Shown here one piece after another: positions 4,115 through 29,868 of a stretch of 29,868 bases of DNA (position 1 is its first letter; every line of letters starts with the position of its first letter). Below the pieces are notes generated by a model, which was given only the letters and a program-made list of their open reading frames with translations, was not told the DNA's origin and ran no database searches. Position numbers and translations under genes: made by a program. The DNA is from a virus. Where the stretch lies: positions 1-29,868 of the IMG/VR virus record IMGVR_UViG_3300028840_002098; one strand, 5' to 3'.

Positions 4115-4120
4115 AATCAA

Positions 4121-4384: not shown

Positions 4385-4385
4385 T

Positions 4386-7942: not shown

Positions 7943-10120
7943 ATGTTTAGAACAAAGCTTTTCAATCTGGCGGCTTTGGTCGTGTTTCTCACGGCCGGAT
8001 CCGCCGCAATGGCCCAGAGGGGCGGTATTGTTTACCATGAAGTTCAGGTGCAAGACGAGCTGGGCCGAGACGTTACTTCGATTAGCACCGTAACGGTTTA
8101 CGCGCCCAGTACAACCAGCGCCGCGACGATATACATGGACGCGGCCCGGACGAAAGAAATCACGCAGCCGTTAACTTCGTCCTCAGACAATACGACACTA
8201 AGTAACGGCAGTTTCTACTGGTATGGCCCGGACGGATGGGATTATACCATCGGCGACGGGACGAATACCCATACCAACGGAGGCCACGCCTCGCTGAACG
8301 CCAGTAACAACGTGCTGATTTTCCCCTCGTATTTGCAGTCGATTTCCTCGACTACTTATACCGATGCGCAGACGGCGACGTTCGGCAGCGGCTCGGACTG
8401 GGTTATTCAGGGCGGGGCCACGGCGGACCTTTTGAGCTTTACCCCGGCCTCGGATAACGCCGAATTTAGAATCGGTGCTTCGGGTACATCGACGAACTCC
8501 GACTTCAATGTATATGTTGGTGCGTCCCTGGGACTGAAGCTGGATGCAGGCACTCCGTCTCTCACATGGGACGGCGGGGCTGCAACGCTCAACCACAATT
8601 CCAACTTCAACGTCGGAATCTGTAGCGGCACATCGACGGGCGCTGTAACGATTGGTAGCAGCACTTCCGGTGCATGGGCGATTGACGGCACTGCCGGCGG
8701 TACTATAAACGCCGACGATTCCATCGGAATCACCTGCACAGCGGGTACTATCGACATCGACGCGACGGGCGGGGATCTGGGTATCGACGCTACTACCAAG
8801 TCGATTCTCATAGACGCCGGCGAAGCCGCCGATGATGCTATCACGATTACAGCCACAGGTACAGCCGGTGGTATTGACATCACCTCGCTTGGTGATATTG
8901 ATATTACCACCACAGGCGCGGCAGGTGAGGATATTACCATCACCAACACCGGCGGCTCGATTGCCATTACGGCTACTGAGAACGTCCAGAATGGCGTCCA
9001 TATCGAGGCTAACGGCGGTACGAGCGAGTCGATTAACCTCTACGCCAATCAGGGGACCGGGGCTTCGGCGGCTACCGAGCACGACGCCTCTATTCAGCTT
9101 CAATCGGATGTTGGCGGTATAGGTCTATATACCGGCCTTAACGCGGCCAATGCTATCCGTTTGGAAACGAACGGCGGTACGAGTGAAGGGATCATCTTGC
9201 ACTCGAATCAAGGCACGTCCGTTACCGAAGGTTCGGCGTCTGTTCAACTGTTGTCCGACGCTGGTGGAATATGTCTTGAGTCCAATGCGAATCTCGCACA
9301 GGCTATCAAGCTGCTGGCCGATGGCGGAACGACTGAGACCATTACGATTCAGGCCGATCAGGGAACTTCAACTACCGAGGGCGCTTCGGCAATTGAGATA
9401 CTTGCCGACGTCGGCAGTATCGAGTTGAAGTCAGGTCTTGACGGCGCAGATGCTATTAACATCATGGTCGATAGCGGTACTTCCAGCGGTATCACAATTT
9501 TCAACGATACCGGAACCGGCGATGAGTCAATTTTGCTGTCTTCGGACGTCGGCGGCATTACAGTCAATGCAGCCGCAGGTTCGGTTGATATCGAGGCCGT
9601 TGGCGCAACCGCCGGCGATCTCGGCCTTACCGCAGGTGATGATATGACAGTTACCGTCACCGGCGACCTGGCAACGACCGTAACCGGCTCGGGCGCAGTG
9701 ACCGCAGCGGGGTATACCATCACCTCGACCGGCGCTATCAATACCAACGGGGCTTTCTATGAAACCAGTCGGGTCACTGAGAGCCATAGCGCAAGTCACA
9801 CCATTACGGACCCGACGGACATCGGGACGCTAATGCTTGTCGATACGGCGGCGGTAGTTATCACCTTGCCCGCCGTAAGTGCCAATGCAACGTATTCGGT
9901 TATGAACGTAGGCGCAGACGGCACTGAAATCCACGTTAATCCGAATGACAACGACAAGATTTGTGGTGGTTGCGGATTTGCAGCCGCCCTTGACGACGGC
10001 GATTGCCTTACCAATACCGGGGCGACTGCCGACTATGGCGACATGGTCGAATTGACGTACTTCGACGGCACCGGATGGCTCATTACCAAGATGGTTGGTA
10101 CGTGGGCGGACGGCAGTTAG
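7943..10120 (+). CDS. Exported beta-repeat fibre or decoration protein
   Basis: 725 residues. Residues 1-24 are a textbook Sec signal peptide (basic start, hydrophobic core, cleavage after SAAMA before Gln25). The rest is Gly/Thr/Ala/Asp-rich and built of short strands with TGxxxI and DVGGI patterns, as in beta-helical or triple-stranded fibres. From about residue 346 to 545 there are four tandem units of 50-53 residues. The last 80 residues (ITLPAVSANATYSVMNVGAD onward, with two Cys-containing loops) form a compact end domain seen in phage fibre proteins. Its place directly after the capsid gene suggests a head fibre or decoration protein, but the signal peptide raises the possibility of display on the host. 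A good AGGAG ribosome site precedes it. Not a known family by name. Confidence 0.72.
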   Translation: MFRTKLFNLAALVVFLTAGSAAMAQRGGIVYHEVQVQDELGRDVTSISTVTVYAPSTTSAATIYMDAARTKEITQPLTSSSDNTTLSNGSFYWYGPDGWDYTIGDGTNTHTNGGHASLNASNNVLIFPSYLQSISSTTYTDAQTATFGSGSDWVIQGGATADLLSFTPASDNAEFRIGASGTSTNSDFNVYVGASLGLKLDAGTPSLTWDGGAATLNHNSNFNVGICSGTSTGAVTIGSSTSGAWAIDGTAGGTINADDSIGITCTAGTIDIDATGGDLGIDATTKSILIDAGEAADDAITITATGTAGGIDITSLGDIDITTTGAAGEDITITNTGGSIAITATENVQNGVHIEANGGTSESINLYANQGTGASAATEHDASIQLQSDVGGIGLYTGLNAANAIRLETNGGTSEGIILHSNQGTSVTEGSASVQLLSDAGGICLESNANLAQAIKLLADGGTTETITIQADQGTSTTEGASAIEILADVGSIELKSGLDGADAINIMVDSGTSSGITIFNDTGTGDESILLSSDVGGITVNAAAGSVDIEAVGATAGDLGLTAGDDMTVTVTGDLATTVTGSGAVTAAGYTITSTGAINTNGAFYETSRVTESHSASHTITDPTDIGTLMLVDTAAVVITLPAVSANATYSVMNVGADGTEIHVNPNDNDKICGGCGFAAALDDGDCLTNTGATADYGDMVELTYFDGTGWLITKMVGTWADGS
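8982..9590 (+). repeat. Four tandem ~150-bp coding repeats
   Basis: Within the fibre gene the landmark GGCGGTACGAG-like sequence recurs at about 9012, 9171, 9321 and 9471 (spacing 159, 150, 150 bases). The first two copies share AACGGCGGTACGAG exactly. Each unit encodes a pattern of AIxLxxxGGTSExIxxxxxQGT then SIxLxSDVGGIxL. The units have diverged at other positions, so the duplication is old. Confidence 0.85.
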
Positions 10121-10137
10121 ATAAGTGTTTAACGGGC

Positions 10138-10172
10138 GTGGGGTTCTCGATTCCTCCTTCCGGGAACCCCAC
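10138..10172 (+). terminator. Stable hairpin, possible terminator
   Basis: GTGGGGTTC (10138-10146) pairs with GAACCCCAC (10164-10172) over nine bases with a 17-base loop. It is followed by AGCCCCTTTTCC, a poor T tract, so it may be a weak terminator, an RNA-stability element or a transcription-attenuating hairpin after the highly expressed capsid genes. Confidence 0.6.
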
Positions 10173-10220
10173 AGCCCCTTTTCCAATGATATTGAAGGAG
10201 GACTCGGAAGGAAAAACAAA

Positions 10221-10493
10221 ATGAGACTTAGAGCTATTGTAATGCCGGCGGTATTCACTGTTTCACTGGCTATGAATGTATGGCTGGTCAACGGACATTT
10301 ACAGGATAGATATTACGCCAAAGGCGTTAAGGACGGCAGGGTAAACCTGGCAAACGCGGTGGTGTCGGAAGTCGAAAAAACCGGGCGGCTGACCGTAACG
10401 GGCAAAACCGGCAGGAAGTATCCCATGCAGGTTGTCGTATTGGAAGCTCCGCCGCTGCCGCCAAAGCTCCCGGTTGACCCCAACGGGAAGTAA
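10221..10493 (+). CDS. Small membrane-anchored protein with Pro-rich tail
   Basis: 90 residues from ATG 10221, chosen because AAGGA lies at good distance; the frame is open upstream to 10125, but that would read through the hairpin region and add a poorly protein-like start. Residues about 5-24 (AIVMPAVFTVSLAMNVWLVN) form one membrane helix. The remainder is basic and ends in VVVLEAPPLPPKLP. The layout resembles small phage accessory membrane proteins; a spanin-like role is conceivable but unproven. Confidence 0.7.
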   Translation: MRLRAIVMPAVFTVSLAMNVWLVNGHLQDRYYAKGVKDGRVNLANAVVSEVEKTGRLTVTGKTGRKYPMQVVVLEAPPLPPKLPVDPNGK

Positions 10494-10498
10494 CTATT

Positions 10499-11431
10499 AT
10501 GGCAAATGAAGTCTATACAGACTGGCCGTCAGGCGAAAACGTGTACTACATCGTCAGGCTAAAGGGCGGAACCGTATGGTATCCGGCAGGGCAGGCTTTT
10601 GAGGGCTGGGGCGACTCTTCGCATACCCGCGACGATTACGATATACCCCTAACGGATCGTGGCGGCGATTTTTACGAGGCCGATTTCGATACGAATATTC
10701 CCGCCGGCAGGTATACTGTTCAGGTGTTTGTCAGGCACGGCGCAGCTCCTGCATCCACCGATACGCTTCGTTCGTCCGCCGATTTCCGATGGTCCGGGGC
10801 GGGAAGAGTGGGCGGTGGTACGGTTATTGGTTCAGGTGTGGGAATATCGGCGGGCGGCGTTTTGACGTTCGTCAATAGGCGCTTGCGCCGCAGCGAGACC
10901 AATATCGACACTGAATTACAGTCCGTACTCGACGATCTTTCCCAGGGCCCGTACATAGCAGGTGTAGACGAGAGCCAGAGCATTTCAGACGACGAAGAAT
11001 ACCTCGCCAAGCCCGATGAGTATTTTTCGATGATTTCGATAGTGCTCAACGACGGCACGAGCGACAGACCGCCGTTAAAGCCGTTTCCCGGAGGGTACAA
11101 GGCATACAAAAAAGAGCGGGGCAACGTTTCGTCGGTTTACACCAGCCATCCTATTTACTATGTGGTATGGGGCGATTATATCTGGCTTTACCCCATACCC
11201 GGCCAGACGTATACGGCGAGAATCGACTACCACAAAGTCCACGCGCAGGACGTCGATACCATTGAGTTCAGCGACGAATGGCGGCGGGCAATCAACTTCG
11301 GCACAACCTTCGAGGTCGCCGCTACATACAAGCTTCCAGACCAGATAGCCATGTGGAGTCAGCGATACGAAGCGGAAAAAGAACGGCAACGGCTGGCGCA
11401 TCCGGGCGTTCCGAGAATAGTGGGAACCTAA
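10499..11431 (+). CDS. Head-tail adaptor fused to an N-terminal beta domain
   Basis: 310 residues in two parts. Residues 1-105 look like a beta-sandwich (VYYIVRLKGGTVWYPAG, NIPAGRYTVQVFVRHG, ending at SADFRWSGAG); similar modules occur in other phage proteins. From about residue 130, ETNIDTELQSVLDDL, EYLAKPDEYFSMISIVLNDG, the short strands PIYYVVWGDYIWLYPIPGQTY and the helix DEWRRAINFGTTFEVAATY match the style of P22 gp4/T7-like adaptor proteins that sit below the portal. The strand pattern IYYVVWGDYIWLYPIP is especially typical of this group. A fusion of the two parts is unusual. The ribosome site is weak. It would act between portal and nozzle. Confidence 0.7.
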   Translation: MANEVYTDWPSGENVYYIVRLKGGTVWYPAGQAFEGWGDSSHTRDDYDIPLTDRGGDFYEADFDTNIPAGRYTVQVFVRHGAAPASTDTLRSSADFRWSGAGRVGGGTVIGSGVGISAGGVLTFVNRRLRRSETNIDTELQSVLDDLSQGPYIAGVDESQSISDDEEYLAKPDEYFSMISIVLNDGTSDRPPLKPFPGGYKAYKKERGNVSSVYTSHPIYYVVWGDYIWLYPIPGQTYTARIDYHKVHAQDVDTIEFSDEWRRAINFGTTFEVAATYKLPDQIAMWSQRYEAEKERQRLAHPGVPRIVGT

Positions 11432-11434
11432 ATC

Positions 11435-11695
11435 ATGAAAGAGCTATTGCAACTCATACGCAAATCGAAGACCGCCAAGAGCGGTCTCGGAACCATATTG
11501 GTGGGTATCCTTATCCTTTTCGGGATTACCGATGCTGCGCCGCCGCAAACCATAGACGACATCGGCAGCGAGCAGACCAATTCCACCGAAACGGTAATCG
11601 GGCTTGGAGCATTGCTTTCCGGGGCGCTGGCCGTCAAGGGCAGAAACGATGTCGAAAAACGCATGAAGGAGGGTGATAAAGATGAAACGGCTTAA
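11435..11695 (+). CDS. Holin-like membrane protein
   Basis: 86 residues with two hydrophobic segments (about 18-33, LGTILVGILILFGITD, and 50-66, TVIGLGALLSGALAVKG) joined by a polar loop, a charged N-terminus (MKELLQLIRKSKTAKSG) and a charged tail (GRNDVEKRMKEGDKDE). This two-helix plan and the ALLSGALAVKGR end match small class II holin-like proteins often found in phages. A holin would time host lysis by opening the inner membrane. No endolysin is adjacent, so the role is tentative; it could be another small membrane protein. The next gene starts 14 bases before its stop. Confidence 0.6.
   Translation: MKELLQLIRKSKTAKSGLGTILVGILILFGITDAAPPQTIDDIGSEQTNSTETVIGLGALLSGALAVKGRNDVEKRMKEGDKDETA
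11666..11677 (+). promoter_or_regulatory. Near-perfect Shine-Dalgarno
   Basis: AAGGAGGGTGAT inside the end of the holin-like gene is close to the full anti-SD complement and lies just before ATG 11682. It decides the start of the next gene at 11682 rather than the in-frame GTG at 11673, which lies within the SD itself. Confidence 0.85.
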
Positions 11696-12599
11696 AATAT
11701 TTCTCGTCTTGCAGTTTCTTTTGCTTGCAGTCGTTACCATTACCGTCTCGGCTCAGCACAGCCTCAAAATCCGTTCGCTATTGGGCAGCGTTCTTCCGGC
11801 GACTACGTTTTCGTATACACTTGACTGCGCGAGTCCGTTAGGCACCGATGCGCCCTCGACGCTGGACAACAAGATCAGAGAGACGCGATACGGGTTCCAG
11901 GAAAGGCTTAACGTCGATCACATATTCGGCCTGACCGGCACGCAGATTTCCGATGAGGACACGGGCTACCACAGGGATATTCACTTCTACTCTACTACGG
12001 CCACCGACCCGATTTTAGGCGTTACCGCCGTTAGCGGTGTTGATGAATTGAGGTACACAAATTCCGACGGCAGTAGCTTCTATCTGACTTCCGGCGGCAC
12101 GCTGAATATCGGCAGTTCCGACCTTCTCGGCACTCTCGCCAATAACACGTACTTTACGGCCGTAGACTCGGCGGGCACGGGCACGGTCGAATTGATAAAG
12201 GCCAACGGTTCGGACGTGGCGGTAATTCCCGACGGTTCGGAACTCGCCTCGAGCGCAGCGCCCACCGCAGACGCCGATATTGCCAATAAGAAGTACGTGG
12301 ACGACAACACAACGATGGTCCCGGCGGTGTCCGGTGCGGGGGCCGGGTATGCAGGAGAGGAAAGCGTAACGTTTCCCAACGGCGTTATTCTCAAAATGGG
12401 CGCGACGACTTACGCATCGAATCCGCAGACGATAACCTTCGGTACGGCATTTCCCACTGCAATTGTATCGGTAGTAGTGACCCCGCACGACAATACGAAC
12501 AGCGAGGAATATGTAACGGCCTATTCCACTACGAGCTTTACGGCCCAGGCGGCTTCGTCGGCCCCGACAACGTGGTTGTGGATGGCTATGGGGTACTAA
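11682..12599 (+). CDS. Exported tail-fibre protein with gp53-like C-terminus
   Basis: 305 residues from ATG 11682. Residues 1-24 are a Sec signal peptide (KRLKIF, Leu-rich core, VSA before Gln25). The middle has fibre-type sequence, including the common PTADADIANKKYVDD element (about residue 195-210). The last ~80 residues (VTFPNGVILKMGATT to the terminal TWLWMAMGY) match the gp53-like tail-fibre C-terminal domain, whose members end in W-x-A-x-GY and carry an FPNG/NGxxxxWG strand; this end usually forms the receptor-contacting tip or a trimerising knob. So it is a likely receptor-binding fibre, but with an export signal. It overlaps the holin-like gene by 14 bases. Confidence 0.75.
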   Translation: MKRLKIFLVLQFLLLAVVTITVSAQHSLKIRSLLGSVLPATTFSYTLDCASPLGTDAPSTLDNKIRETRYGFQERLNVDHIFGLTGTQISDEDTGYHRDIHFYSTTATDPILGVTAVSGVDELRYTNSDGSSFYLTSGGTLNIGSSDLLGTLANNTYFTAVDSAGTGTVELIKANGSDVAVIPDGSELASSAAPTADADIANKKYVDDNTTMVPAVSGAGAGYAGEESVTFPNGVILKMGATTYASNPQTITFGTAFPTAIVSVVVTPHDNTNSEEYVTAYSTTSFTAQAASSAPTTWLWMAMGY

Positions 12600-12602
12600 G
12601 TA

Positions 12603-14216
12603 ATGGCGGTAATGACCGAGCGAAAATTTGGTATTATCTCGGACCTCATGGGTGTGGCTGAGGACTTTCCTACGGTCAAGATGCCTTCGGTGTATTCACC
12701 GTCTTCGTCGAATACGTTTCTTCAGTACGGCATGGTTAGGGCTATGCCCGGTGCGGCGGCGACGTTCCTCGATGGCGACGGCGATAAGGTTCAGACCCCG
12801 GACGCCAACCCGATAATTCACTTCTGGCGACACGTTGCAGCCGATGGTACGGAATATGTTTTTGTCTTCACTAAGGCACACGTCTATATCTGGAACGATA
12901 CCACCAAAGCCTATACGACGATGCACACCTGCGATTCCGACTGTACGATGTGGGACACGGTTAGTATCAACGGGCACGTCATTTCAACCAACAATGTCGA
13001 TAAGATCCAGGACTGGTCGGAAGATACGCCGGCGACGGTCTTTGCCCCCCTGGACACGGCGTCCGGCCTGAGCCTCGGAGACGGCACCTACGTTACGGCA
13101 GCGAAGTATCTCGCTACGTGCGAAGGCTATCTGTGGGTTCTCGGCACAACCGAGGGCGGTTCGAGCTATCCCCGTAGAGGCAGGTGGAGTACTTACAACG
13201 ATTACACCGACTTTGATGCTACCGGCAGTGGTGATACCGGAGCCAAAGACTTCCTTGAAGGCTCAGACATAATCAAGGGCACGGGCAAGTACACATACGG
13301 CGGAGTCGATATACTGGTAATCTTTAAGGGCGAAAAGAACATCTACATGGCATGGCTGGTGGAAAGCGACGACGTGTGGAATATCACCCGCGCCGAGGGC
13401 AACGTCGGCCTTCTTGCCACGCACTCGGTTTGCAACGACAAGGACGGCAATTTGTATTACATTGCCAGTGATTATACCGTGCGCAAGCTTCACCACGGAG
13501 TAATCAGCGAGAGGATCGACAAGATAATTAAGAACATTTCCGTGACGTATCAGGACTATATCGAGGCCACTTACATCGACCAATACAATCAAATTTGGTG
13601 GTCTATTCCGTCGGCGGCAGGTTCTACCGGCAACGATAAGGTCGTTGCCTATAACCTCAATTACAGGATTTGGCATCCTTATTCGTTTAGTATCAGGGCG
13701 TTCGGCGAATGGTCGCAACAAACGAGCTATACCATCGACGGACTCGATGCGATAGGCGACACCATTGACGGTCTTGACGCGGAAATCAGCCAAATAGACT
13801 GGGTCTCTTCGCTGGCGGGCTTTCCTCTGGAACTCGGCAGTGATTACTCCGGATATGCCTACAATCTGCACCAGTCCGAGCAGGATATGGGCAATGATAT
13901 TACCAGGGATTTTGTTATCGCCACGCATCTGACCGACGGGATATCACTGCCGCACTTCAAAAGAGTGAACCGCATACAGAGCTTTTTCATGTCGAGAGCG
14001 GCGGACGAAAGTCTCGCGTTAAGCGTAAAAGAAGACAATGAAAATGAATATACCAGTCTCGGCAATGTGAGTATTCAGGGCACTACAGCGGCCATTATTA
14101 GCGACGAAATGACTCCGGACCTCAGGGCTATGCACTTTTTATTCAAATATTCGGGGACGTCGCTGTTCGATTTCATAGGTGTATATTTCGATTTTTCTTT
14201 CGATGGGACACTTTAA
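12603..14216 (+). CDS. Tail nozzle / DNA-stabilisation protein (P22 gp10-like)
   Basis: 537 residues, three bases after the previous stop. The body is a run of beta strands with propeller-like spacing: IIHFWRHVAADGTEYVFVFT, HVYIWNDTTKAYTTM, DTVSINGHVISTNN, YLWVLGTTEGG, NIYMAWLVESDD, NLYYIASDYTVRKLHHG. The closing half has the TIDGLDAIGDTIDGLDAEIS element (about residues 377-400); the T-I-D-x-L pair is a hallmark I associate with phage tail nozzle proteins of this group, followed by the DISLPHFKRVNRI-like strand set. Such proteins form the hexameric tail tube that closes the channel below the adaptor. The assignment is from fold-style and position. Confidence 0.75.
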   Translation: MAVMTERKFGIISDLMGVAEDFPTVKMPSVYSPSSSNTFLQYGMVRAMPGAAATFLDGDGDKVQTPDANPIIHFWRHVAADGTEYVFVFTKAHVYIWNDTTKAYTTMHTCDSDCTMWDTVSINGHVISTNNVDKIQDWSEDTPATVFAPLDTASGLSLGDGTYVTAAKYLATCEGYLWVLGTTEGGSSYPRRGRWSTYNDYTDFDATGSGDTGAKDFLEGSDIIKGTGKYTYGGVDILVIFKGEKNIYMAWLVESDDVWNITRAEGNVGLLATHSVCNDKDGNLYYIASDYTVRKLHHGVISERIDKIIKNISVTYQDYIEATYIDQYNQIWWSIPSAAGSTGNDKVVAYNLNYRIWHPYSFSIRAFGEWSQQTSYTIDGLDAIGDTIDGLDAEISQIDWVSSLAGFPLELGSDYSGYAYNLHQSEQDMGNDITRDFVIATHLTDGISLPHFKRVNRIQSFFMSRAADESLALSVKEDNENEYTSLGNVSIQGTTAAIISDEMTPDLRAMHFLFKYSGTSLFDFIGVYFDFSFDGTL

Positions 14217-14219
14217 GCA

Positions 14220-14510
14220 ATGGCGAAGATGGCAAAAACAATAAATTTGCAAAGGATAATCAATCTTGAGGATGTCCGGCGCAACAACGTTGCTATTGAG
14301 GCGGCGTATCGCAATATCCACAATGACGTTATCTGGGCTTCGGAGGTTCGCAGACGGGCAGAGCAGGAAGCGCCGGGCTACGTGAAACTGCTGTCGCTCG
14401 ACGGTACGGCATATTACCTATTCGCTGAAAACGACGGGACATTAAGAGTCCATACTTCGGCGCCGACGGCTAATGACGACGGCGACGTAGTCGGCGATCA
14501 GACAGATTAA
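14220..14510 (+). CDS. Small virion-region protein, unknown
   Basis: 96 residues, starting four bases after the nozzle stop. A helical N-terminal half (RNNVAIEAAYRNIHNDVIWA) leads to a short beta part (GYVKLLSLDGTAYYLFAEND) with an acidic tail. The location between the nozzle and ejection-type genes suggests a tail or virion accessory role. The family is not recognised. Confidence 0.65.
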   Translation: MAKMAKTINLQRIINLEDVRRNNVAIEAAYRNIHNDVIWASEVRRRAEQEAPGYVKLLSLDGTAYYLFAENDGTLRVHTSAPTANDDGDVVGDQTD

Positions 14511-14527
14511 AGAAAGAAGGTGAAGCA

Positions 14528-15346: not shown

Positions 15347-15359
15347 ATAGGTGGTATAA

Positions 15360-16229
15360 ATGCCGGTTGTAAGAGCTGCAAAAAAAACGACAGGTCTTGA
15401 GTCCATGTCGAAGGCTTTGTCCGAGGTATTGGACACGATTACCCAGATAAAGCAATACCGGGGCCAGCAGGCGATGAATCAGGCGGCGCTGCAGGCAATG
15501 GCTGGTGCGGGGACTCGCGAAGACAAAATAGCCGCAGGACATCAGGCGGTAACTGATACGCGCGAGCAGAGTCAAACGTCACAAGGCTTGCTCCAGGACA
15601 TAATGTCTGCTTTCGATCCTCGCGTACCCTCGTATGTCGGCAATGCGCCCATTGAGGCGCTTCTTACCGGAGAAGCCGTCAGGGGAATGCTCAGACCCAC
15701 TGCAACCGTAGACCCCGAATCCGAGAGGCGCAAGAACATAGAATACTGGTCCGGGATGTATAACGACGCCGCAAAAACGCTGATGGGGTTTAAAGCCTTA
15801 TACGAAGACGACGAAAAGTATGCCGACCAGATAAAGCAGGCAGAGACGCTGATGAAGCACGCCCAACAACAGTTGCGTCAATTAGGGATAGGTGTTCCGC
15901 AATCAGCGGGCAATGTCAATCCTGGCGATGTTGATGCTGTAAGTATGGCGGACCCAAAGGTGACGACCGGCGGCAATGCGCCTGTGCTTAACGATTCGAC
16001 TCCGGTAGTGAAAGAGGAAGGTCCGCCTGTACCGGCTGATTTAGGATCGCGTTCTGTGCCGCCCCTGGCGATTCCTCTTAACGATTTGTTATTTTATCGC
16101 AATAAGATGGACCCCGCGTCGATTGAGGAATTAAAGACGATATTGGCAACGGGAGATGATGCTCTGATTGCGCGCGCATACGAGAGAATGAAACAGGTTT
16201 ATGGCGAAAACACTACAAAAACCAAATAA
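15360..16229 (+). CDS. Probable second ejection-type protein
   Basis: 289 residues with AGGTGG before the ATG. It has a Lys-rich start, a coiled-coil helix (SKALSEVLDTITQIKQYRGQ), an Ala/Gln helix (AMNQAALQAMAGAGTREDK), a Pro-rich disordered middle after about residue 200 and a helical end. The plan of flexible helices and disordered linkers fits proteins stored in the capsid and threaded through the portal. It overlaps the next gene by 29 bases. The family is not recognised; the role is inferred from position between the first candidate ejection protein and the giant one. Confidence 0.6.
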   Translation: MPVVRAAKKTTGLESMSKALSEVLDTITQIKQYRGQQAMNQAALQAMAGAGTREDKIAAGHQAVTDTREQSQTSQGLLQDIMSAFDPRVPSYVGNAPIEALLTGEAVRGMLRPTATVDPESERRKNIEYWSGMYNDAAKTLMGFKALYEDDEKYADQIKQAETLMKHAQQQLRQLGIGVPQSAGNVNPGDVDAVSMADPKVTTGGNAPVLNDSTPVVKEEGPPVPADLGSRSVPPLAIPLNDLLFYRNKMDPASIEELKTILATGDDALIARAYERMKQVYGENTTKTK

Positions 16230-22200: not shown

Positions 22201-22731
22201 CACGCCCTCGAACGCCTTGCGGAGAAGGAATTAACGCCGTACCGGCAGGTTAAAAGACTCGCCGATAAGGTGGACCGCAAATGGTTCAATGAAAACAACA
22301 TCAGTAAGGCCCACTACAAATGGAGGGCTGAATCATGGAAGTACCGAGAAGGAAAGAAAAATCCGACGGCAATGGATAAGGTTGGAGCTTATGCCGACCG
22401 CGTAATGATGGGAACGCAAGACTACGGCGTAGGTGAAAACACGCTTGCTTACGAACTTGCCGCCAGGCAGGTGATAGTCGGCGATGTCCGCGACGCGGCT
22501 AAGTACCTTCGGATCATTCTCAGGGACGCCGACGATAGGGCCGCCGCAATCAGGTCTATTCGTTCGAGTAAAACGTCCAGGTCGCCGTTAGGCAAGGTGG
22601 CGCAGAAGGACAGGTCGAAATTCCTAAAAGACTATTCACTTGAAAGCAAGAGAGAGGCTATGGCTGTGCAAAACAAGTACCTGCGCAACTATGAAAGGGC
22701 GTTGCGTCTCGCAGCCGCCAAGAAGAAATAG
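16201..22731 (+). CDS. Giant multidomain ejection/polyvalent protein with a DnaN-like module
   Basis: 2176 residues. Visible parts: (1) two copies of GGIFADL at residues 12-18 and 28-34; (2) a Gly/Ala-rich hydrophobic region, about 219-330; (3) a helical region with low-complexity K/A/E/P linkers (about 843-885 and 1338-1375); (4) a possible SH3/KOW-like barrel at about 700-800 (YKIGDIVTYQSF, GKLVQARFDT); (5) a sliding-clamp-like segment at about 1105-1316; (6) a helical region, about 1380-1690; (7) a C-terminal membrane-associated part with YDNHPFVKMLAQFKTWPMSQ near 1863 and a probable transmembrane helix near 1905-1925. This recalls phage 'large polyvalent proteins', which package many small domains for delivery into the host. 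It overlaps the previous gene by 29 bases; the ATG at 16201 is favoured since the GGIFADL repeats follow directly, though its ribosome site is weak. Confidence 0.85.
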   Translation: MAKTLQKPNKSGGIFADLMPQQPTTRPGGIFADLLQGGVNILSPGVIESPDTDAPIVASPTVDPQMLSRVSSALAEPQAQEPGRDVRMGATKAGQYTPGGLAIVPPKGKQRPPLVERTAKQYANEAALNMAEQSRPDAGTVEAVTWMTSSKMEKIFEEMDANPGLWNRIKQAPKLWWAMTSSYYGPKDKARQQVAKAELETKRPSVAFDVPQAETSAEKAVDIGAGLGAFISQILVARKIVPAGTVLPDAVAWEMVNRANGGVPGQGAMTRGALGGIGAIPTGTAAGKIAKTGAESGLFAGLTGVMGGDAEDMIVSALVPVAFNTYNFARMRSSLIKQEKGLRSAATQKYQKSRREGMTEVVARKHLEIDMRAIDKAVARAKQTIYNTDAFAPAGDRWRAEQRRLLKIVATGKPGSAKVKRAQGILDWMTEAVPPGTEAPEGLKLPTTRAGEIAASAKEVVTKKGTKPTKPLSAEQLGIEAGQRQAKGPDILVAKGVTPMAGVSKKADIAPESTQAKEATEVTQESLTKGLSRAFGIETETPKADVTPEKRAEAINRVKDILSKDQFKELDDDAKYDSARKMLGKYGIEATKEEIIGSEAQTTEEAAAGRVVEDKTTGAVSEASETGVDEAVGEKVDVRRIGGERTVSDAVRELGEAQLGISKAIDAHGYGGITEKEQHPDVVKARRVIEQKSNALYDALEPKYKIGDIVTYQSFAPAGSYNVARRQPDGTFTETPSEESTGKPKQGKLVQARFDTSQAADNILRIGMPSTFALQNVEIETSSGVREQIYPSDLVNGETFSDTIRINPTEVLRDIVAESKGVSQKGVVSTTKKAIKSTPATKPAAEKKPAKASDKGKAPAEAKPGEKKGEAKEPTVAATKAEKGKVHPDSIREGLIKKHGQEAWDEAFYRLAEEGKNERFTELDEKLIDLDQAGKFNSPEALNLRREYETLIGDEIKLLPATKKETPSEAKEQARTESEPGAEVHEREAVDLTPTGKLDPTKEEDALKIVELHRQEIRGRESAHGGVTEEIPREGGGTEEVVMYSTEEVDQAYRTVQKQVDSPLRDTNLFAMPGKESQMEAIGKKMERLAKKPTFPAKRRGVSIPRPKNLPRVAKDRAEIIKAVAIAKASEQSRYASNGLYVDGDNLVATDGRRLFIAKGKWGKDGLYMSPNLKTGKLGKADTEGLKFPPYKNVIPTDYSDSDAIEIRDLDVVWRRLRKADIISSAKDMPGVLIVLNSDGTLGFAADASEVGHVEINVREGAKILGGMDPQFLMDVLAFHARRGDKQIEMWFPVPDRPILTRSPHDKTLTVTMPVNAGDASESLAETIDPAKKTQRLKAEAEAKAKKESEAAKSPVEAKKPATKKPRGKAAGATTIIPDLAAEVHGIVSKTYKNPVKMSKSLYGLYRRNLRRATNYMRTLGGAGEKLADDIDQITYRVTKNTNNDLQDIRNVFRGLSKNHRETVCKLINDRIPKNKAPKNLVERADKIRAILDRAMNDAADLDMKRTVRGEKIPVGGSGKAYPQVPNAKGVAFLEEAASAGKGSATVFAWANEQVQGGKFEDVDAAITALQRFRDNRMRGLNTYLESERVELPEDMIEWDGIHTLPHLIERNWMTVEGVRQWGNNFGRAHSRIETIKNQRGTDDAYRVKLFIETSFGIKSIASQFSKEVSRQVRGYQFITKVGLSPLTIMRNMFDRIAKGFTISPLSTIKASIKYPPFINQFIRSAQKHEDWMIRSGAVFGHGSLSEGYEAGSVITELASAPFSSSERGNQVFIAMVQYDKFLRDLSRLKGRDKVLARLMKPASWIWGSSERALKYRISEAAGEKALEKALAGEEMTQEEIEFMLHKTVRDKAFPMVLSTKPIWYDNHPFVKMLAQFKTWPMSQLNMIWRDVAKYTVKAHDPSRLIGFLIGTLIAGELYNILRDFLFDKKESLLSQYVKDEKEREVALAIVNDLLDGGVVGMLADFSYGIYDWVTGVSARTAKNTWDTALHIKKRPSLTFHALERLAEKELTPYRQVKRLADKVDRKWFNENNISKAHYKWRAESWKYREGKKNPTAMDKVGAYADRVMMGTQDYGVGENTLAYELAARQVIVGDVRDAAKYLRIILRDADDRAAAIRSIRSSKTSRSPLGKVAQKDRSKFLKDYSLESKREAMAVQNKYLRNYERALRLAAAKKK
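19513..20148 (+). other. DnaN-like (sliding clamp) domain within the giant protein
   Basis: Residues ~1105-1316 reproduce in order the landmarks of the second half of a bacterial beta clamp: helix AEIIKAVAIAKASEQSRYAS then GLYVDGDNLVATDGRRLFIA (E. coli has VATDGHRLAV at the equivalent strand turn, ATDGRRL at 1149-1155 here); FPPYKNVIP (1188-1196; E. coli FPDYRRVLP); MDPQFLMDVL (1268-1277; E. coli NVSYVLDVL); and LTVTMPVN near 1309-1316 (E. coli YVVMPMRL). This looks like part of domain II plus a complete domain III. I see no first domain, so it would not by itself make a normal three-domain ring. Confidence 0.85.
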
Positions 22732-22739
22732 GTGATTAC

Positions 22740-25700
22740 ATGAAACACATTGAGAAGATTGTAATAATAATGGCCGTGATTGCATTGTTGTTGGTTGCCG
22801 ATTACGTATCCGGCCAGCCGGTTACGGGGTCGTTTGTTGCTTTGGTAATACGGATACTCGAAAACGACAGCACCAACGAGAACAATGCGATTCCCTTCAT
22901 AGCCGACGGCGATACCGACGGCGGCACTGTTCGCCTGGAAATGGACAGCGATTTTACGTACAATCCCTCCACGGGGACGGCAACAGCCGGAGAGTTCAAG
23001 GGCGGCGGCAGCAACCTTACCGATATTCGCGGCACTGACGGAGCCTTCGGTACGAGTTGGGACGGCGATACGCACGCGCCGGAAAAAGACGACGTCTACG
23101 ATGTCATGCGAGAGCAGCGGTTTTCGGTTAAGGACCACGGCGCCACCGGCGACGGCACAACGGACGATAGTACGGCGATACAGGCGGCATGTACTGCTGC
23201 TGGGGGCGGAGATGGTACGTCACAGGGCATAGTCTTCATTCCCGAAGGCGTTTATCATTGTGATAGTTCCATTACCGTTCCCGGCAGGGTGAGCATGAAG
23301 GGCGTGGGTTATGGTTCAATCCTCAAACCCGACCTGGACGGTTCGACTGATTTTCTCATTCAAGGCGACCAATCGAGCTCTCAGGGGTGTGTTATATGGA
23401 AAGACTTTGCCATATTAGCAGACAAGCAAACCGATGACGGCGGGGCTGTGAATTCGTGCCGAAATGCAATGGTGATAACTATGATGCATGAAAGCCGTTA
23501 TGGTCCTATTACCATTTTGTGTGACGCCGAAGAATACGGCCTTTATGTGATTGGCTGTATTCAGACTTATTTCGATATTAACATAGGGACAATATCGACA
23601 TCCGCAAGCTATGCTCGTCCCGACAATGGCATCTACGTGCGCAACTGTGACAACGGCACGGCCGACCCGTTTACTGGGGTTGTTGACGCCGGAAGCGATA
23701 CCCAAAACAACCGCCTTGAATTTCACTTAGCACTGTCTGGGATTAACGATACGACCGCCGGGTATGCAATGAAGTGGGACGAAACATTCGGCGGCGGTAC
23801 TGCCGGCGGAATGAATTCTAAGGTGATAGGCCGGATAGAAGGCAATGCTAATGAGTATGGTTTTTACGGTGAAGGTCTTAACACGGTTGATTTCGAGAAC
23901 GTATATACCGAAGCTGGGGGAACCGATAACAACAAGTTTTATTTGAAAACCTGCGAGAATATCAATGCCATGAATTGCAGGTTTGGGCGGGGACTTTACA
24001 TTGAAGATTCTCAGGGCATTACCTTGGGGCCTGGAAATGAATACGCGGATATAGATATTGAATCGGACGTGTTCGACGTTCATTTTCTCGGTTCCAGTAA
24101 GATGTTGGCCAGTCATACTTATGTCCAAATAGGCGACAGCAACGAGATTGATATTGACGCCGCCGGTGTTCGGTCGAGCGGGATAATGTTCTTTGATTCG
24201 CTTAACAATCGGGGTGTATCTTTTGGCGGGGCGGATACAATCAACCTTTTCACCAATTCAACGTTTGAGGATTGGAATTCCGACAGACCGCAGGGGTGGG
24301 GCAAGGACGCATCGGCGACGTGGACTCAGTGCGGAACGGGACTTACGGACACAACTAACCATTGGGACACTTATTCCGTGAAATATAGTGCCCAAGGCCA
24401 AACAAGTTCCTATACCGTCCCATCAGGCGTCTTGTCAATGCTACAGGGCGACCTTGCGACATTCTCAATCTGGTGTAAATTTGCTTCCGGGCAAAGCCCT
24501 ACGGCGCGTTCCCAGATTCAGGTTTTTCGTACAATAACAAGCGGCAATGAATCAGACACGATGTTAATCTATTCCTCCGAAGACGATACATGGCATCGAA
24601 AAACCGTAACATTTCACGTACCTACGGATTGCACACAGATAGATATAAAAATCGAGACTCGCGGTGCTGCCGGCGTAGACGGAGATTTGTACTTAGCCGA
24701 ACCATATCTGGCTAAGGGTGTCGTTGCCCCCGCAGGCGTAGTGAATGAAATTGACAGTCAGACAAGAAAGTGGCTGGCGGAGAATGATGTCGGCATAGCC
24801 ACCACCGACCCCAACCACCCCTTAGATGTGGACGGCACGGTACAGGCCGAGAAGTATCTGCACAGAACTGTAGCCGTTACGGCCTCTGCCGATGATACGG
24901 ACGTTGACGACGCCGATATTGTCACAGTGGACACAAGCGGCGGGGCAGTTACATTGGGCGGGTTCGCCAACGGCGATGCGGGGCAATTGCTTTACGTCTG
25001 CGTGGTTGACTCCACGGCGGCTACTACGCTCGAACACGCCGAAGGTGCGGGCAGTCAGGATGTGTACCTGTCTTCGGGGGACGATGAAACTGTGGCTATT
25101 GGGGCATACGGAGGCTGGCTGTTACAGTACAACGGGTCCAATTGGTACGAGGTAACAGCCGGGGGAGCGGCGGGTGTCGAAGATGACGTATATGCCGCCG
25201 GTTGGAATGGAGACCAAACCAACGCGCCTTCTCAGAATGCGGTATACGACTATCTCGTCCAATTCGACGCCGACGCTGATGGCGATTTCACGGATGAGGG
25301 TTGGTTCCCCGCCGGTGGGGCGGTTGCATGGGACGATATTACAAATCCGGACGCCGACGACACAATCCAATACACGGGATATGAAATCACTCTGAGCAGC
25401 ACGCTCGACGAAGCTGCGCACACAGCACTTACCCTGGACCACACCGATGCCGACCTTGCCAATGCGACCACAATATTCGGCATTCAGGGCGTAGATAACG
25501 ATTCTGCCAACCTGACGTTCTTCCATATCGAAGATGATTCCGGGGGTACGCCAGATACTATTTTCAAAGTGGATACAGGTGTTCACGTCGGGGCCGACGA
25601 TGAAATCGCCCACCTAACCGTTCACGACGCCGGAACCATTGTCCTGTACGATGATTCCGACGATACCAGCGTGACACTGGGGCCGGTTGGCGACGGCGGG

Positions 25701-28700
25701 ACCGTTCTGGGAGTAACGGGGACAATAAACGCCACGGCCTTACAAGTGGGCGGCAGTGCGGTTTACTACGCTGGTGGTACGGATGTTGCCGATGCCGATA
25801 TGGTAGATGCCCACTCCCACGCAGCCGATTCCATTGACGCTATTACAGAGATAGCAGCGGCCCTGAAAAGCGGCTCGGATACAACGTTAATCACCGGCAC
25901 AAAAGCGGCGAACGGTCAACTGGCCATGTTCAATGCAGACGGAGATTTGGTCGATGCCTCTAAAGCTGCTTCGGCAGTAGGATCCACCGCCTATGACGAT
26001 ATTGGAGACCCGGATGCGGCGGGCAGTATAAGCTTTGATGCGGCAGAAGGCGGTACGTACACAAGCTCTGATGCCGAGTGGGTAGGCATAACCATTTCTA
26101 ACACTGTTGCCGACAATACCGGTGATTCAGAACTCTTAACCCTTGCCTTCACGGACGATGGCGACACGAATATGCACTATCTGATAATGTCCGACGCCGC
26201 CGGTACACAGCAACTTGAGTTCATTCAGAACACAGCCGACGTACAAGTAACAAGCGCCGGAGACCTGAAGTTTATTGCGGGCGGCGGCGATTTCGACTTT
26301 GCCGACGACAACATAAATACGACAGGAATTGCCACTTTTGGCAGGTATGCAACATTTTCATACCAGAATGACACTGCCAACGTTTCTCCGTTTATAAGGC
26401 TAAATAGAGCATTGGCCGGAGGTGCCGATGTTGAAAACGACGATGAACTTGGCGATATTCGTTTTTATGGTATGAGCAATGGCGGATACCAACTGGGTGC
26501 TAAAATTGTCGCAGTGACGGATGGTGCTGTCGGCGGTGCAACGGACATGCCGTCTGAATTACAATTTCTCACGTCAGCCGATGGTTCTGCAACACCTACA
26601 CTTGCGATGTCGATCAGTGCTGCTCAAGTAGTTACTTTTGCCAACGACTTGGCGGACTCAGAGATTGCTGACGACATTACCTGTACCAATTACCTCGATC
26701 TGGCAACGTATGATTCCGGTTCAGACGGCGGGGTAGACGACGTAGACGCCGAAGTGGTGGCCCTGAACGAGTTAAGCGATGTGACGATTGGCAGTGCCGA
26801 CGATTGTGATATTTTAGTTTATCAGGCCACTCCCGCAACGGCATGGATAGACGTTGCTATGAGCGGGGATGCCACGATTTCCAATACCGGGGTGGTTACG
26901 GTTGACTGGACGAATCTTACAGAAGGCGAGCTATCGACGGGCGTGGTGGTCAGCGACGATATTAAGGACGATACGATAGAGTCTGACGACTATGCTGCTG
27001 GCTCGATAGACGATGAACATATCGCCGACGATACGATCCAGGAACCCGCGCTGAATGTCACAAACGCAGGCGCTGAAGGCATAGACAATTACGTGCTATC
27101 CTACAATCATGCCGGGACTAACTTTACTTGGGTAGAAATGACAGGTGGGGCCAACTATGTTACCAACGACGCAGACGATACAATGGCGGGGGATTTGACT
27201 CTCGATGACGACGATGTTGGGACGGCCCTGACGGTTCGTGCCGACGCTGCGAATACAGGGGCCAGCATAGGGTTACTTATCACTACTGACGACGACGACA
27301 ATGCCAATTTCGACCCGTTCGAGATACGCGACGATTCAGGCTCAGGCAATGACCTGTTGTTTTTTATAGACCACACAGGAGCGGTGACTACTGGCGAGTG
27401 GAAAGGCACGGCTATAGCCGATACTTACGTTCCCGATGATATTACAATTGACCTTGCCTCCACGGCCACGGTTGCCACTACGGTAACGATTACCGACAAT
27501 GAGGACACTGCCGAGAATAACCCGTTGGTGTTCGTGGCCGGTGGTGATCTTGACGGCGGCGATTTGGGCCTCGAAACCGATGGAACGACGTATTACACCC
27601 CATCGACCGGAGTTATCACCGCCACGGGCTTTGCAGGAGCGTTGACGGGCAACGTGACGGGCGACTGTACTGGCAGCTCAGGCACTTGTACGGGTGCGGC
27701 TGACGTAGGAACTCACGTTACCGTCACTGACAACGAGGACCAGGACGAAGAGAATGAGGTTGCGTTTGTAGAGGACGCAAGTGGACCGGGCAATGTTGGA
27801 TTGGAGTCTGACAGCGGGTTTACGTATAATCCCTCGACTGGGACCTTGACGGCGGCTGCATTTGCAGGGGCTTTGACGGGTGCGGTTACAGGCAACGCAG
27901 ATACATGCACGACCGCCAGTGCTGGCGACGCGGCGGTAGACTTCTTCGGAGCCGGTGTTGACGCCGTTACCGACGCCACGACCTGTACCGACATCGAAGG
28001 TACAAAGCTTTCAATTACAGACGGCACGCTCAATTGCACCGAAACCGATTCAGTCGTTGGTGCGGTATCGGGTATCGTCAAGGCCGACGGCGGGGGCAAT
28101 ATTTCGGCGGCGGTAGCAAATACTGATTACGAGCCCGCATTGACGGACGAGGCCAGTCTGTACACGACACTTTCAGATGTAACTCAGTTTTACGAGGCCG
28201 GAGATGAAGACAGTATTGCGGCGGCGATAGCGGAAGGTGAATTGGCCGACTCCATAGTCATCACAGATGACATCAAGGACGGCACGGTAGCGGCCGCGGA
28301 TTTGAACGCTACGTTGGATTTGTCCAGTAAGACAATCACATTACCTGTAAGGCCGAAGACGCAGGAACATCACATGACCTTCAATCTGTGGAATCCTAAT
28401 GCTATGTATGACAACGATACCCAAGTTTGTGTATGGCCCACTACACCAGCGGCCCTAACCATCACGAAAATAACGGTAACATGTGACGCAGACCCGGACA
28501 CCGAGCTCGAGTTTGATTTGAAGTGGGCCGATGCGTTTATAGGCTTGGCGAACGCCGCCGTAATAGACGAGATAGACACCACCAGTGGTACAACGTCGAT
28601 TGCGGCTGGTTTTGACGACGCCGATGTTGCTTCTGGAAAGTGTATCTATATTGAGTTTCAAGCGGATCCCGACTCAGGGATAAAGCAAGTATGTGTTGAT

Positions 28701-28721
28701 GTGACATTTGATTGGGACTAA
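22740..28721 (+). CDS. Exported giant tailspike/fibre with pectate-lyase-3 domain
   Basis: 1993 residues. Residues 1-25 form a signal peptide (YVSG before Gln26). A DNE-type repeat (about 37-92) precedes the FSVKDHGATGDGTTDDSTAI motif near 123-142, which together with GIVFIPEGVYHCDSS is the recognisable start of a Pectate_lyase_3 right-handed beta-helix, as in phage tailspikes that cut surface polysaccharide (to about residue 480). Residues ~501-660 (NSTFEDWNSDRPQGWG onward) resemble a carbohydrate-binding jelly-roll (CBM4/9-like). Further fibre modules follow, two more DNE repeats (1582-1640, 1660-1720), and a two-Cys beta-rich end domain (~1875-1993). It is strikingly Asp-rich. The start overlaps nothing and lies eight bases after the previous stop. 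Catalytic residues cannot be assigned by eye. Confidence 0.85.
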   Translation: MKHIEKIVIIMAVIALLLVADYVSGQPVTGSFVALVIRILENDSTNENNAIPFIADGDTDGGTVRLEMDSDFTYNPSTGTATAGEFKGGGSNLTDIRGTDGAFGTSWDGDTHAPEKDDVYDVMREQRFSVKDHGATGDGTTDDSTAIQAACTAAGGGDGTSQGIVFIPEGVYHCDSSITVPGRVSMKGVGYGSILKPDLDGSTDFLIQGDQSSSQGCVIWKDFAILADKQTDDGGAVNSCRNAMVITMMHESRYGPITILCDAEEYGLYVIGCIQTYFDINIGTISTSASYARPDNGIYVRNCDNGTADPFTGVVDAGSDTQNNRLEFHLALSGINDTTAGYAMKWDETFGGGTAGGMNSKVIGRIEGNANEYGFYGEGLNTVDFENVYTEAGGTDNNKFYLKTCENINAMNCRFGRGLYIEDSQGITLGPGNEYADIDIESDVFDVHFLGSSKMLASHTYVQIGDSNEIDIDAAGVRSSGIMFFDSLNNRGVSFGGADTINLFTNSTFEDWNSDRPQGWGKDASATWTQCGTGLTDTTNHWDTYSVKYSAQGQTSSYTVPSGVLSMLQGDLATFSIWCKFASGQSPTARSQIQVFRTITSGNESDTMLIYSSEDDTWHRKTVTFHVPTDCTQIDIKIETRGAAGVDGDLYLAEPYLAKGVVAPAGVVNEIDSQTRKWLAENDVGIATTDPNHPLDVDGTVQAEKYLHRTVAVTASADDTDVDDADIVTVDTSGGAVTLGGFANGDAGQLLYVCVVDSTAATTLEHAEGAGSQDVYLSSGDDETVAIGAYGGWLLQYNGSNWYEVTAGGAAGVEDDVYAAGWNGDQTNAPSQNAVYDYLVQFDADADGDFTDEGWFPAGGAVAWDDITNPDADDTIQYTGYEITLSSTLDEAAHTALTLDHTDADLANATTIFGIQGVDNDSANLTFFHIEDDSGGTPDTIFKVDTGVHVGADDEIAHLTVHDAGTIVLYDDSDDTSVTLGPVGDGGTVLGVTGTINATALQVGGSAVYYAGGTDVADADMVDAHSHAADSIDAITEIAAALKSGSDTTLITGTKAANGQLAMFNADGDLVDASKAASAVGSTAYDDIGDPDAAGSISFDAAEGGTYTSSDAEWVGITISNTVADNTGDSELLTLAFTDDGDTNMHYLIMSDAAGTQQLEFIQNTADVQVTSAGDLKFIAGGGDFDFADDNINTTGIATFGRYATFSYQNDTANVSPFIRLNRALAGGADVENDDELGDIRFYGMSNGGYQLGAKIVAVTDGAVGGATDMPSELQFLTSADGSATPTLAMSISAAQVVTFANDLADSEIADDITCTNYLDLATYDSGSDGGVDDVDAEVVALNELSDVTIGSADDCDILVYQATPATAWIDVAMSGDATISNTGVVTVDWTNLTEGELSTGVVVSDDIKDDTIESDDYAAGSIDDEHIADDTIQEPALNVTNAGAEGIDNYVLSYNHAGTNFTWVEMTGGANYVTNDADDTMAGDLTLDDDDVGTALTVRADAANTGASIGLLITTDDDDNANFDPFEIRDDSGSGNDLLFFIDHTGAVTTGEWKGTAIADTYVPDDITIDLASTATVATTVTITDNEDTAENNPLVFVAGGDLDGGDLGLETDGTTYYTPSTGVITATGFAGALTGNVTGDCTGSSGTCTGAADVGTHVTVTDNEDQDEENEVAFVEDASGPGNVGLESDSGFTYNPSTGTLTAAAFAGALTGAVTGNADTCTTASAGDAAVDFFGAGVDAVTDATTCTDIEGTKLSITDGTLNCTETDSVVGAVSGIVKADGGGNISAAVANTDYEPALTDEASLYTTLSDVTQFYEAGDEDSIAAAIAEGELADSIVITDDIKDGTVAAADLNATLDLSSKTITLPVRPKTQEHHMTFNLWNPNAMYDNDTQVCVWPTTPAALTITKITVTCDADPDTELEFDLKWADAFIGLANAAVIDEIDTTSGTTSIAAGFDDADVASGKCIYIEFQADPDSGIKQVCVDVTFDWD
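22848..23015 (+). repeat. First copy of DNE/NPSTG fibre repeat
   Basis: Residues ~37-92 of the tailspike (ENDSTNENN, FIADGDTDGG, TYNPSTGTATAGEF) match two far downstream copies at 27483-27665 and 27717-27900, separated by about 1,500 residues that hold the beta-helix and binding modules. Confidence 0.8.
27483..27900 (+). repeat. Second and third copies of DNE/NPSTG fibre repeat
   Basis: Two adjacent ~60-residue units begin TITDNEDTAENN and TVTDNEDQDEEN, and each contains a GxxGLExD...STG.(I/L)TA.xFAGALTG core. Copy three shares FTYNPSTGT with the first copy near the N-terminus. Both end in Cys/Thr-rich stretches (VTGDCTGSSGTCTG, NADTCTTA). Confidence 0.85.
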
Positions 28722-28733
28722 AGGAGAATTAAC

Positions 28734-28853
28734 ATGGCAGACAGAAACGGAAAAGGACCGAGGGCGCGTAGCCCCAAACCGAGTCGTAGATTAGCCGGGG
28801 ACAGACGCGGCGGCTGTAAAACGACAAGGTCAACAGGTAGAGGCAGGAGATAA
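28734..28853 (+). CDS. 39-residue very basic Arg/Gly-rich peptide
   Basis: ATG 28734 follows an excellent ribosome site (AAGGAG at 28721-28726, eight bases upstream) and encodes 39 residues with about a dozen Arg, several Lys and Gly and one Cys (GDRRGGCKTTRSTGRGRR at the end). The composition suggests nucleic-acid binding, perhaps to packaged DNA, but no family is recognised; a vague likeness to small GRG-repeat proteins is not enough. It is followed four bases later by the next gene. Confidence 0.7.
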   Translation: MADRNGKGPRARSPKPSRRLAGDRRGGCKTTRSTGRGRR

Positions 28854-28857
28854 GAAA

Positions 28858-29163
28858 ATGGCATTAACAGTAGGCGTAACAAAGTTATGGCCGGTACTTG
28901 AGGGCGCAGGCCAGATACGTATTGGCGCAGAAGTAGTTCTAAACGATGACGACACCGAGCACCGAATGACCGATACCTTGGAGCAAAAACGGAAATCGTT
29001 CACTACTAATACCGAAAAAACGGCAGACCCGGAAGTTCAGGCAGGTCTGATAATAGCGGAAATGAATGCGTGGATTCAGGGCTATAAGGACGAAAAAGTG
29101 GCATTTAATCACGCCAAAATGGGTGCGTTTATAACAGCCATAAACGAAGGGGCTATACTATGA
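28858..29163 (+). CDS. Small protein, unknown
   Basis: 101 residues with AGGAGA about six bases before the ATG and an ATGA overlap with the next gene. It has a strand-rich N-terminus (ALTVGVTKLWPVLEGAGQIR), an acidic loop, and a helical C-terminal part (PEVQAGLIIAEMNAWIQGYK). The family is not recognised. It lies between two genes for probable virion-associated or exported proteins. Confidence 0.7.
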   Translation: MALTVGVTKLWPVLEGAGQIRIGAEVVLNDDDTEHRMTDTLEQKRKSFTTNTEKTADPEVQAGLIIAEMNAWIQGYKDEKVAFNHAKMGAFITAINEGAIL

Positions 29164-29855
29164 AGCGAAGATATTATGGAAAAATAATGCGGTTTACACT
29201 GGTCTCGCTCGCGGTTTTGTGCATGTTCGCAATATGCGTAATGCCGTTGAAACCGGCCAGCGCGGCATTGACGATGACGACCTCAATAGACGAAGTGGAT
29301 GCCTGGCAGGCAGTAACAGCGGGTACAATGGGTGAAGGTACGGCAGATAGCATATCAGACAGCTACAAGACTTTGCTCTATATTGAAGTGGCTATGATTG
29401 AGGCTGTAGCGCAAGACGGGGTTACTGTCATCGTAGAAATATCGTATGCCGATGACAACTGGATGAAGCTAACGGAATTCACAGGCACAGCAGAGACGCC
29501 AGCTACGACCCAGACGGCGGAAGACCCGACAAGCGCAGGCGATTCCACAGTTACGCTTGATGACTCTTCTACTGGCGACTTTGACGTTGTTGGCCGAAAG
29601 TGGTTCATCAAAGACAGCACAATTGGCAATTCGGAGTCGGTGAGGACAAAAAGTGACAACGCTAACGTGGTTACTCTATGCCAAGACACATTAAGGGAAC
29701 ATGCCGTTGATAGCAATGCTTACGACAGGGTAGACGAATGGGTAGTGAGTATTCCTTTTGGCGCAGCTTACGTAAGAACTTTAGTCAATAATACCGATGC
29801 AGATTCGGACGTTGCTTTTACAACTCGCGTTTCTAAGGTTACGGCAATCCAATGA
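29160..29855 (+). CDS. Exported protein of virion region, unknown
   Basis: 231 residues. Residues 1-35 are a signal peptide with a basic start, a long hydrophobic core and a KPASA cleavage site before Ala36; Met10 (29187) is an alternative start giving a shorter signal. The mature part is beta-rich (LLYIEVAMIEAVAQDGVTVI, VEISYADDNWMKLTEFTG, DSTVTLDDSSTGDFDVVGRK, EWVVSIPFGAAYVRTLVNNT), like a compact phage tail or decoration domain that recurs among uncultured phages. I cannot name it. It is coupled to the previous gene by ATGA and overlaps the next start the same way. Confidence 0.75.
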   Translation: MKRRYYGKIMRFTLVSLAVLCMFAICVMPLKPASAALTMTTSIDEVDAWQAVTAGTMGEGTADSISDSYKTLLYIEVAMIEAVAQDGVTVIVEISYADDNWMKLTEFTGTAETPATTQTAEDPTSAGDSTVTLDDSSTGDFDVVGRKWFIKDSTIGNSESVRTKSDNANVVTLCQDTLREHAVDSNAYDRVDEWVVSIPFGAAYVRTLVNNTDADSDVAFTTRVSKVTAIQ

Positions 29856-29868
29856 AAAAACTACTACT
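29852..29868 (+). CDS. Start of a further gene (partial)
   Basis: ATG 29852 overlaps the previous stop as ATGA and encodes MKKLL before the window ends. The basic-then-Leu start suggests another signal peptide or membrane anchor, in line with its neighbours. Confidence 0.5.

Follow-up and report, generated by a model that had tools for sequence, protein, structure and literature searches.

The window analysed here is an IMG/VR virus record of 29,868 bases; all coordinates refer to this whole stretch, and gene products are named by the letter F and the position at which they start. It encodes a P22-type portal and a P22-type capsid protein, both recovered by Pfam search, and is therefore a P22-like podovirus record; the same two proteins rule out a filamentous phage. 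The closest cultured match of the capsid is to Paracoccus phage KLEP18-1, at 24% identity, and a scan for relatives with the capsid as single protein returned none. The virion module contains, besides portal and capsid, an adaptor, a nozzle-like protein, probable internal proteins and several fibre-like genes. We found that four products, F7943, F11682, F22740 and F29160, begin with well-supported predicted export signals of the Sec/signal peptidase I type. The features are given below, where SP stands for signal peptide and SP-positive or SP-negative for the prediction made by the rule described afterwards.

194..2173, + strand: P22-like portal protein, SP-negative (PF16510, E = 1e-48; phrog_156)
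6686..7906, + strand: major capsid protein, SP-negative (PF13252, E = 4.5e-28; phrog_334)
7943..8014, + strand: predicted SP of F7943, 24 amino acids (kept in 21/23 contigs)
8015..10120, + strand: mature part of F7943, fibre-like, an N-terminal beta domain and then repeats, encoded between capsid and adaptor
10499..11431, + strand: adaptor-like virion protein, SP-negative, as are 23/23 family members (phrog_2941, E = 0.0016, and position)
11682..11753, + strand: predicted SP of F11682, 24 amino acids (AGGAGG-type site; family SP-positive in 11/19)
11754..12599, + strand: mature part of F11682, a predicted tail fibre (PF21882 Gp53-like_C, E = 5e-12; Foldseek matches 6ct8 and 4mtm)
12603..14216, + strand: nozzle-like virion protein, SP-negative in 16/16 members of the window's clade (phrog_3287, E = 6e-25)
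16201..22731, + strand: 2176-amino-acid protein, SP-negative, from its position a probable ejection protein (related protein in contig G405)
22740..22814, + strand: SP of F22740, 25 amino acids, predicted by the rule
22815..28721, + strand: mature part of F22740, a giant candidate fibre with a pectate-lyase fold (PF12708, E = 4e-12) and a carbohydrate-binding domain (PF02018, E = 1e-6)
29160..29264, + strand: predicted SP of F29160, 35 amino acids (SP-positive in 8/8 further loci)
29265..29855, + strand: mature part of F29160, with no assigned fold, belonging to a mobile fibre cassette (homologues in P22-, T7- and HK97-type contigs)
29852..29868, + strand: first codons of a fifth, predicted SP-positive gene, cut by the contig end (same-position homologue in L095 lectin-like, Laminin_G_3, PF13385, E = 3e-21)

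Signal peptides were predicted with a rule that looks for a positive n-region, a hydrophobic core and small residues at -3/-1, with a cut-off of 8.5. All four proteins have these features, and each of the four genes has an ATG start and a Shine-Dalgarno (SD)-like site. Cleavage is predicted after MFRTKLFNLAALVVFLTAGSAAMA and ahead of QRGG in F7943, after MKRLKIFLVLQFLLLAVVTITVSA and ahead of QHSL in F11682, after MKHIEKIVIIMAVIALLLVADYVSG and ahead of QPVT in F22740, and after MKRRYYGKIMRFTLVSLAVLCMFAICVMPLKPASA and ahead of ALTM in F29160. An earlier note on this DNA had read signal peptides at these four starts and Gln as the first mature residue in three of them, and both readings were borne out. 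It had also suspected a signal on the gene starting at 29852; only the first five codons (MKKLL) of this open reading frame (ORF) lie within the record, and of the eight other F29160 loci five (L089, L090, L092, L093 and L095) have an SP-positive gene in the same position, in line with the suspicion.

To calibrate the rule we used 49 kb of Escherichia coli K-12, in which it caught 5/5 known secreted proteins (MalE, LamB, MalM, AphA and NrfA). The remaining matches scoring at least 8.5 were membrane proteins and ActP, so that the rule alone cannot separate a cleaved signal peptide from a membrane anchor. Two further window proteins, at 4785 and 10221, also score by the rule, and we read these as membrane anchors. 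Given that the starts themselves were picked by a simple rule, the signals could in principle be artefacts, with start codons misassigned or N-termini hydrophobic by chance. However, the SD-like sites, the ATGA overlaps with upstream genes, the conservation across many contigs and the controls (0/121 and 0/91, see below) led us to reject this explanation, which we regard as highly improbable.

Relatives were drawn from viral contigs and one contig of a Planctomycetota metagenome-assembled genome (MAG), and family counts were made over 26 records; the near-identical G403 and G404 were both counted, and L013 and L014, which are SP-positive and nearly the same as L012, were not. The signal is kept in 21/23 contigs for F7943, in 11/19 family members for F11682 and in 8/8 further loci for F29160. 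It can be seen that the signals persist while the sequences diverge, and so absence from close relatives, which the earlier note had named as grounds for giving up its reading, was not what we found. Overall, 34/45 members of three fibre families were SP-positive, against 0/121 core virion proteins (portal, scaffold, capsid, adaptor, nozzle-like and internal proteins) from the same contigs (Fisher p ~4e-26, which is only indicative because the sequences are related). In these contigs the signals are restricted to distal tail parts. Seven cultured P22-like podoviruses (KLEP18-1, SopranoGao, Itty13, phiA008, Parlo, phiR18 and AP1) are like the window in portal and capsid families and in gene order, but differ in that 0/91 of their virion-module proteins of at least 150 amino acids are SP-positive. 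F7943, F11682 and F22740 gave no tblastn match in a cultured-phage collection.

PHROG and Pfam searches with F7943 found no known family; the place of its gene between capsid and adaptor suggests a head-fibre position. Its N-terminal beta domain, modelled with a predicted local distance difference test score (pLDDT) of ~90 over residues 1-80, has weak structural matches to phage fibre N-termini. Ala at -1 is invariant in 7/7 aligned sequences and the hydrophobic core drifts; Gln at +1 is common across the family without being fixed. From the mature N-terminus to a conserved DE there are 11-15 amino acids in 19/20 measured SP-positive members, and 13 and 16 in two SP-negative ones. In the window F7943, codon 23 is a further in-frame ATG (MAQRGG). 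A potential explanation of the signals is partial export, whereby a weak signal, late timing or an internal start would give a cytoplasmic pool that serves the virion, the exported pool being otherwise employed. This ATG is in its favour, as are some signals that are weak by the rule (for example at L017:17011). However, the F7943 family does not conserve the internal Met, and downstream starts in SP-positive F11682 genes mostly lack an SD-like site; we therefore consider partial export improbable.

F11682 is predicted to fold as a tail fibre, on a model of modest confidence (mean pLDDT 60) whose Foldseek matches include the R2 pyocin fibre (6ct8, E = 6e-7) and AP22 gp53 (4mtm, E = 2e-4), and its PF21882 match agrees with this. 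It is thus like the R-type pyocin and AP22 gp53 tail fibres in fold and in its Gp53-like C-terminal domain; those fibres are cytoplasmic products not known to carry a signal, whereas F11682 has a predicted one. The SP-negative form of F11682 begins at the conserved domain, and an in-frame stop lies 2-7 codons upstream of the SP-less starts, as it does in the two SP-negative F7943 genes. For F11682 the offset from the N-terminus, measured as for F7943, is 8-14 amino acids in 8/11 SP-positive members after predicted cleavage, and 13 amino acids in 6/7 measured SP-negative ones. The SP-less starts therefore fall near the predicted cleavage point of most SP-positive forms, which argues that the signal is added to tail proteins one gene at a time. 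SP state often differs between the two fibres of a genome; F7943 is SP-positive together with an SP-negative F11682 in eight contigs and the reverse holds in G416 and G417, which rules out a single genome-wide assembly programme. We conclude that the signal peptide behaves as a module placed on tail proteins. These alignments also bear on the idea that the signals stay uncleaved and act as hydrophobic anchors in the membrane or the virion during assembly. The rule is blind to that difference, and the lengths of the signals vary; nevertheless, small residues at -1 are conserved and the cleavage point coincides with the SP-less start, and we hold uncleaved anchors to be distinctly improbable.

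F22740 carries pectate-lyase and carbohydrate-binding domains and has no PHROG match, and a large SP-positive protein of the relative G003 matches the tail-spike family phrog_4636. No match to F29160 was found in PHROG and Pfam searches. The third F29160 member counted, that of G405, is SP-negative by the rule owing to its fusion with the gene upstream, and an SP-like stretch precedes the same domain. In this contig, at L072:1721-2704 (minus strand), homologues of the window genes at 28858 and 29160 form a single in-frame fusion that encloses the SP-like stretch.

The SP pattern is wider than the window and is conserved in uncultured tailed phages. The F29160 cassette occurs with SP-positive fibre-type genes in HK97-type contigs (G425, with capsid PF05065 and protease PF04586; G424, with portal PF04860) and in T7-type contigs (PF12236 in G419 and G423), which rules out that the pattern is restricted to P22-like phages. 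The G423 nozzle (phrog_376) itself bears a signal peptide directly ahead of the start of the profile match. This family is identified by phrog_376 matches in L103 (E = 6.5e-177), L152, L108 and L161, with phrog_394/9239 upstream in the tail tubular A position, and the proteins are like tail tubular protein B of HTVC010P and gp36 of Cobetia phage Carin1 in family and in gene order after tail tubular A. Among the best 80 of at least 424 relatives of an SP-positive query, from which 13 repeats and one start-less locus were dropped, 12/66 distinct environmental N-termini were SP-positive, against 0/6 cultured members; as the loci are relatives of an SP-positive query, 12/66 is not a prevalence. 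SP-positive nozzles group together on the tree, with 3 changes where shuffling gave 12.1 on average (0/500 shuffles as low), indicating retention of the signal over deep divergence. The distance from cleavage to a motif was 6-8 in 5/9 measured nozzles, and in the other four the rule chose a site beyond the motif. Further large SP-positive fibre-type genes are present in the SP-positive nozzle records G423, G426, G430, G432 and G433, and known fibre profiles start at residues 22-28 in three SP-positive proteins (L229, L221 and L103).

The SP-positive nozzle is the only nozzle ORF in 9/9 records searched, although the records may be fragments. This bears on a further explanation, namely that SP-positive proteins work extracellularly as lectins or depolymerases that are not part of the virion, in receptor masking, in exopolysaccharide degradation or as decoys. 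Such a role would fit the pectate-lyase, carbohydrate-binding, Laminin_G and sulfatase domains found on SP-positive proteins, and the switching of SP state from gene to gene. It would not account for a sole nozzle ORF with a signal, or for retention of the N-terminal domain common to SP-less tail proteins. We consider it unlikely as a general account, and individual fibres may possibly be secreted without a virion role. The earlier note had assumed that export would keep fibres out of the virion, and had proposed either that the signals serve another purpose ahead of assembly or that the infected cell displays or secretes the proteins; this interpretation is supported in part. Its view of the signals as real holds in so far as they are predicted export signals; its premise is doubtful and found no support in the comparison, since SP-less members share the domain start and the sole T7-type nozzle ORF carries a signal.

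The reading we prefer, to which we give about an even chance, is that distal tail parts are exported, trimmed and joined to DNA-filled heads at lysis. On this view, ordinary tail proteins would have acquired signal peptides at their N-termini. In the late phase of infection such distal parts of the tail, namely fibres, tailspike and in the T7-type group also the nozzle, would cross the inner membrane via host Sec, and signal peptidase would trim them near their usual N-terminus. DNA-filled heads would meanwhile be built in the cytoplasm from SP-less proteins, and the exported parts would wait beyond the inner membrane and dock on the heads as lysis mixes the compartments. The placement of the signals on distal tail parts fits such completion of the tail after export. 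The sequences show the signals, how they are conserved and placed, and which families several carriers belong to; export itself, entry of the mature proteins into virions, and the timing are inferred. Finished P22 heads accept tailspikes in vitro, which makes late docking of fibres plausible. More tentatively, and with confidence somewhat short of even, we propose that in some tailed phages the tail (fibres, and the T7-type nozzle) is completed outside the cytoplasm, docking only at lysis, with signal peptides toggling a second assembly compartment gene by gene.

Several observations weigh against export followed by docking. Nozzles normally help to retain DNA in the head, and late docking is harder for them because heads must hold their DNA. 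All six cultured nozzle-family members checked are SP-negative, and one of them, that of Carin1, is annotated as structurally validated. F11682 of the window, G003 and G004 keeps ~17 extra residues past the signal peptide, and the SP state of F11682 is labile: the capsid tree requires at least six switches, and well-supported branches force two of these. SP-positive and SP-negative forms do not differ in cysteine content, which also rules out a disulphide rationale for export.

The coat proteins pIII and pVIII of filamentous phages are virion proteins exported through host Sec by means of a cleaved signal; filamentous virions assemble at the membrane and are extruded, unlike the tailed phages considered here with portal and terminase. 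Tail-protein orthologues whose main difference is the added signal constitute a natural experiment by which compartmentalised tail assembly becomes directly testable. If it is true, annotation could no longer take a signal peptide as excluding a phage protein from the virion, and the question of where and in what order tails are completed, for which cytoplasmic assembly is the taught view, would be open again. In the open-licence literature, seen mostly at abstract level, we found no description of tail fibres or nozzles with Sec signals; such signals are discussed for lysis proteins instead. Lysis proteins with Sec signals (Sec endolysin and Rz1 lipoprotein) use host Sec, as described in two articles (PMC8951688, PMC9144972). 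They differ from SP-positive tail proteins in acting in the envelope and in not being tail components.

As to hosts, one capsid relative sits in the Planctomycetota MAG contig, and a distant P22-like contig of a Planctomycetota genome (L040) has four SP-positive genes in a row. One of these, at L040:2405-5173 (minus strand), encodes a fibre-position protein with a signal peptide and a sulfatase domain (PF00884, E = 3e-11). Nine nozzle genes read in seven Planctomycetota genomes were all SP-negative (nozzle places in G104, G208:C60 and G271 lie outside this count), so that this phylum is only a lead.

Some minor features of the window and its relatives were also noted. The 2176-amino-acid protein at 16201-22731 takes up more than one-fifth of the record and has no Pfam match. 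Two small membrane proteins with no assigned family, at 10221-10493 and 11435-11695, lie between fibre genes and are lysis candidates from position alone. A short remnant-like MRRRDFLKAMAVWKS, at ~160-206, precedes the portal of the window; in several relatives, short genes with twin-arginine-like starts (MKRRSFLK, MNRRSFIQ, MKRRTFIQ and MKRRDFLK) lie close to portal or capsid genes (L003:1424-1606, L011:2065-2394, L099:9312-9671 and L105:2015-2963), and small lipobox-type proteins (for example with LSGC or LTSGC) adjoin the portal gene at L004:10086-10724, L017:4496-4753 and 3915-4499, and L023:3088-3399.

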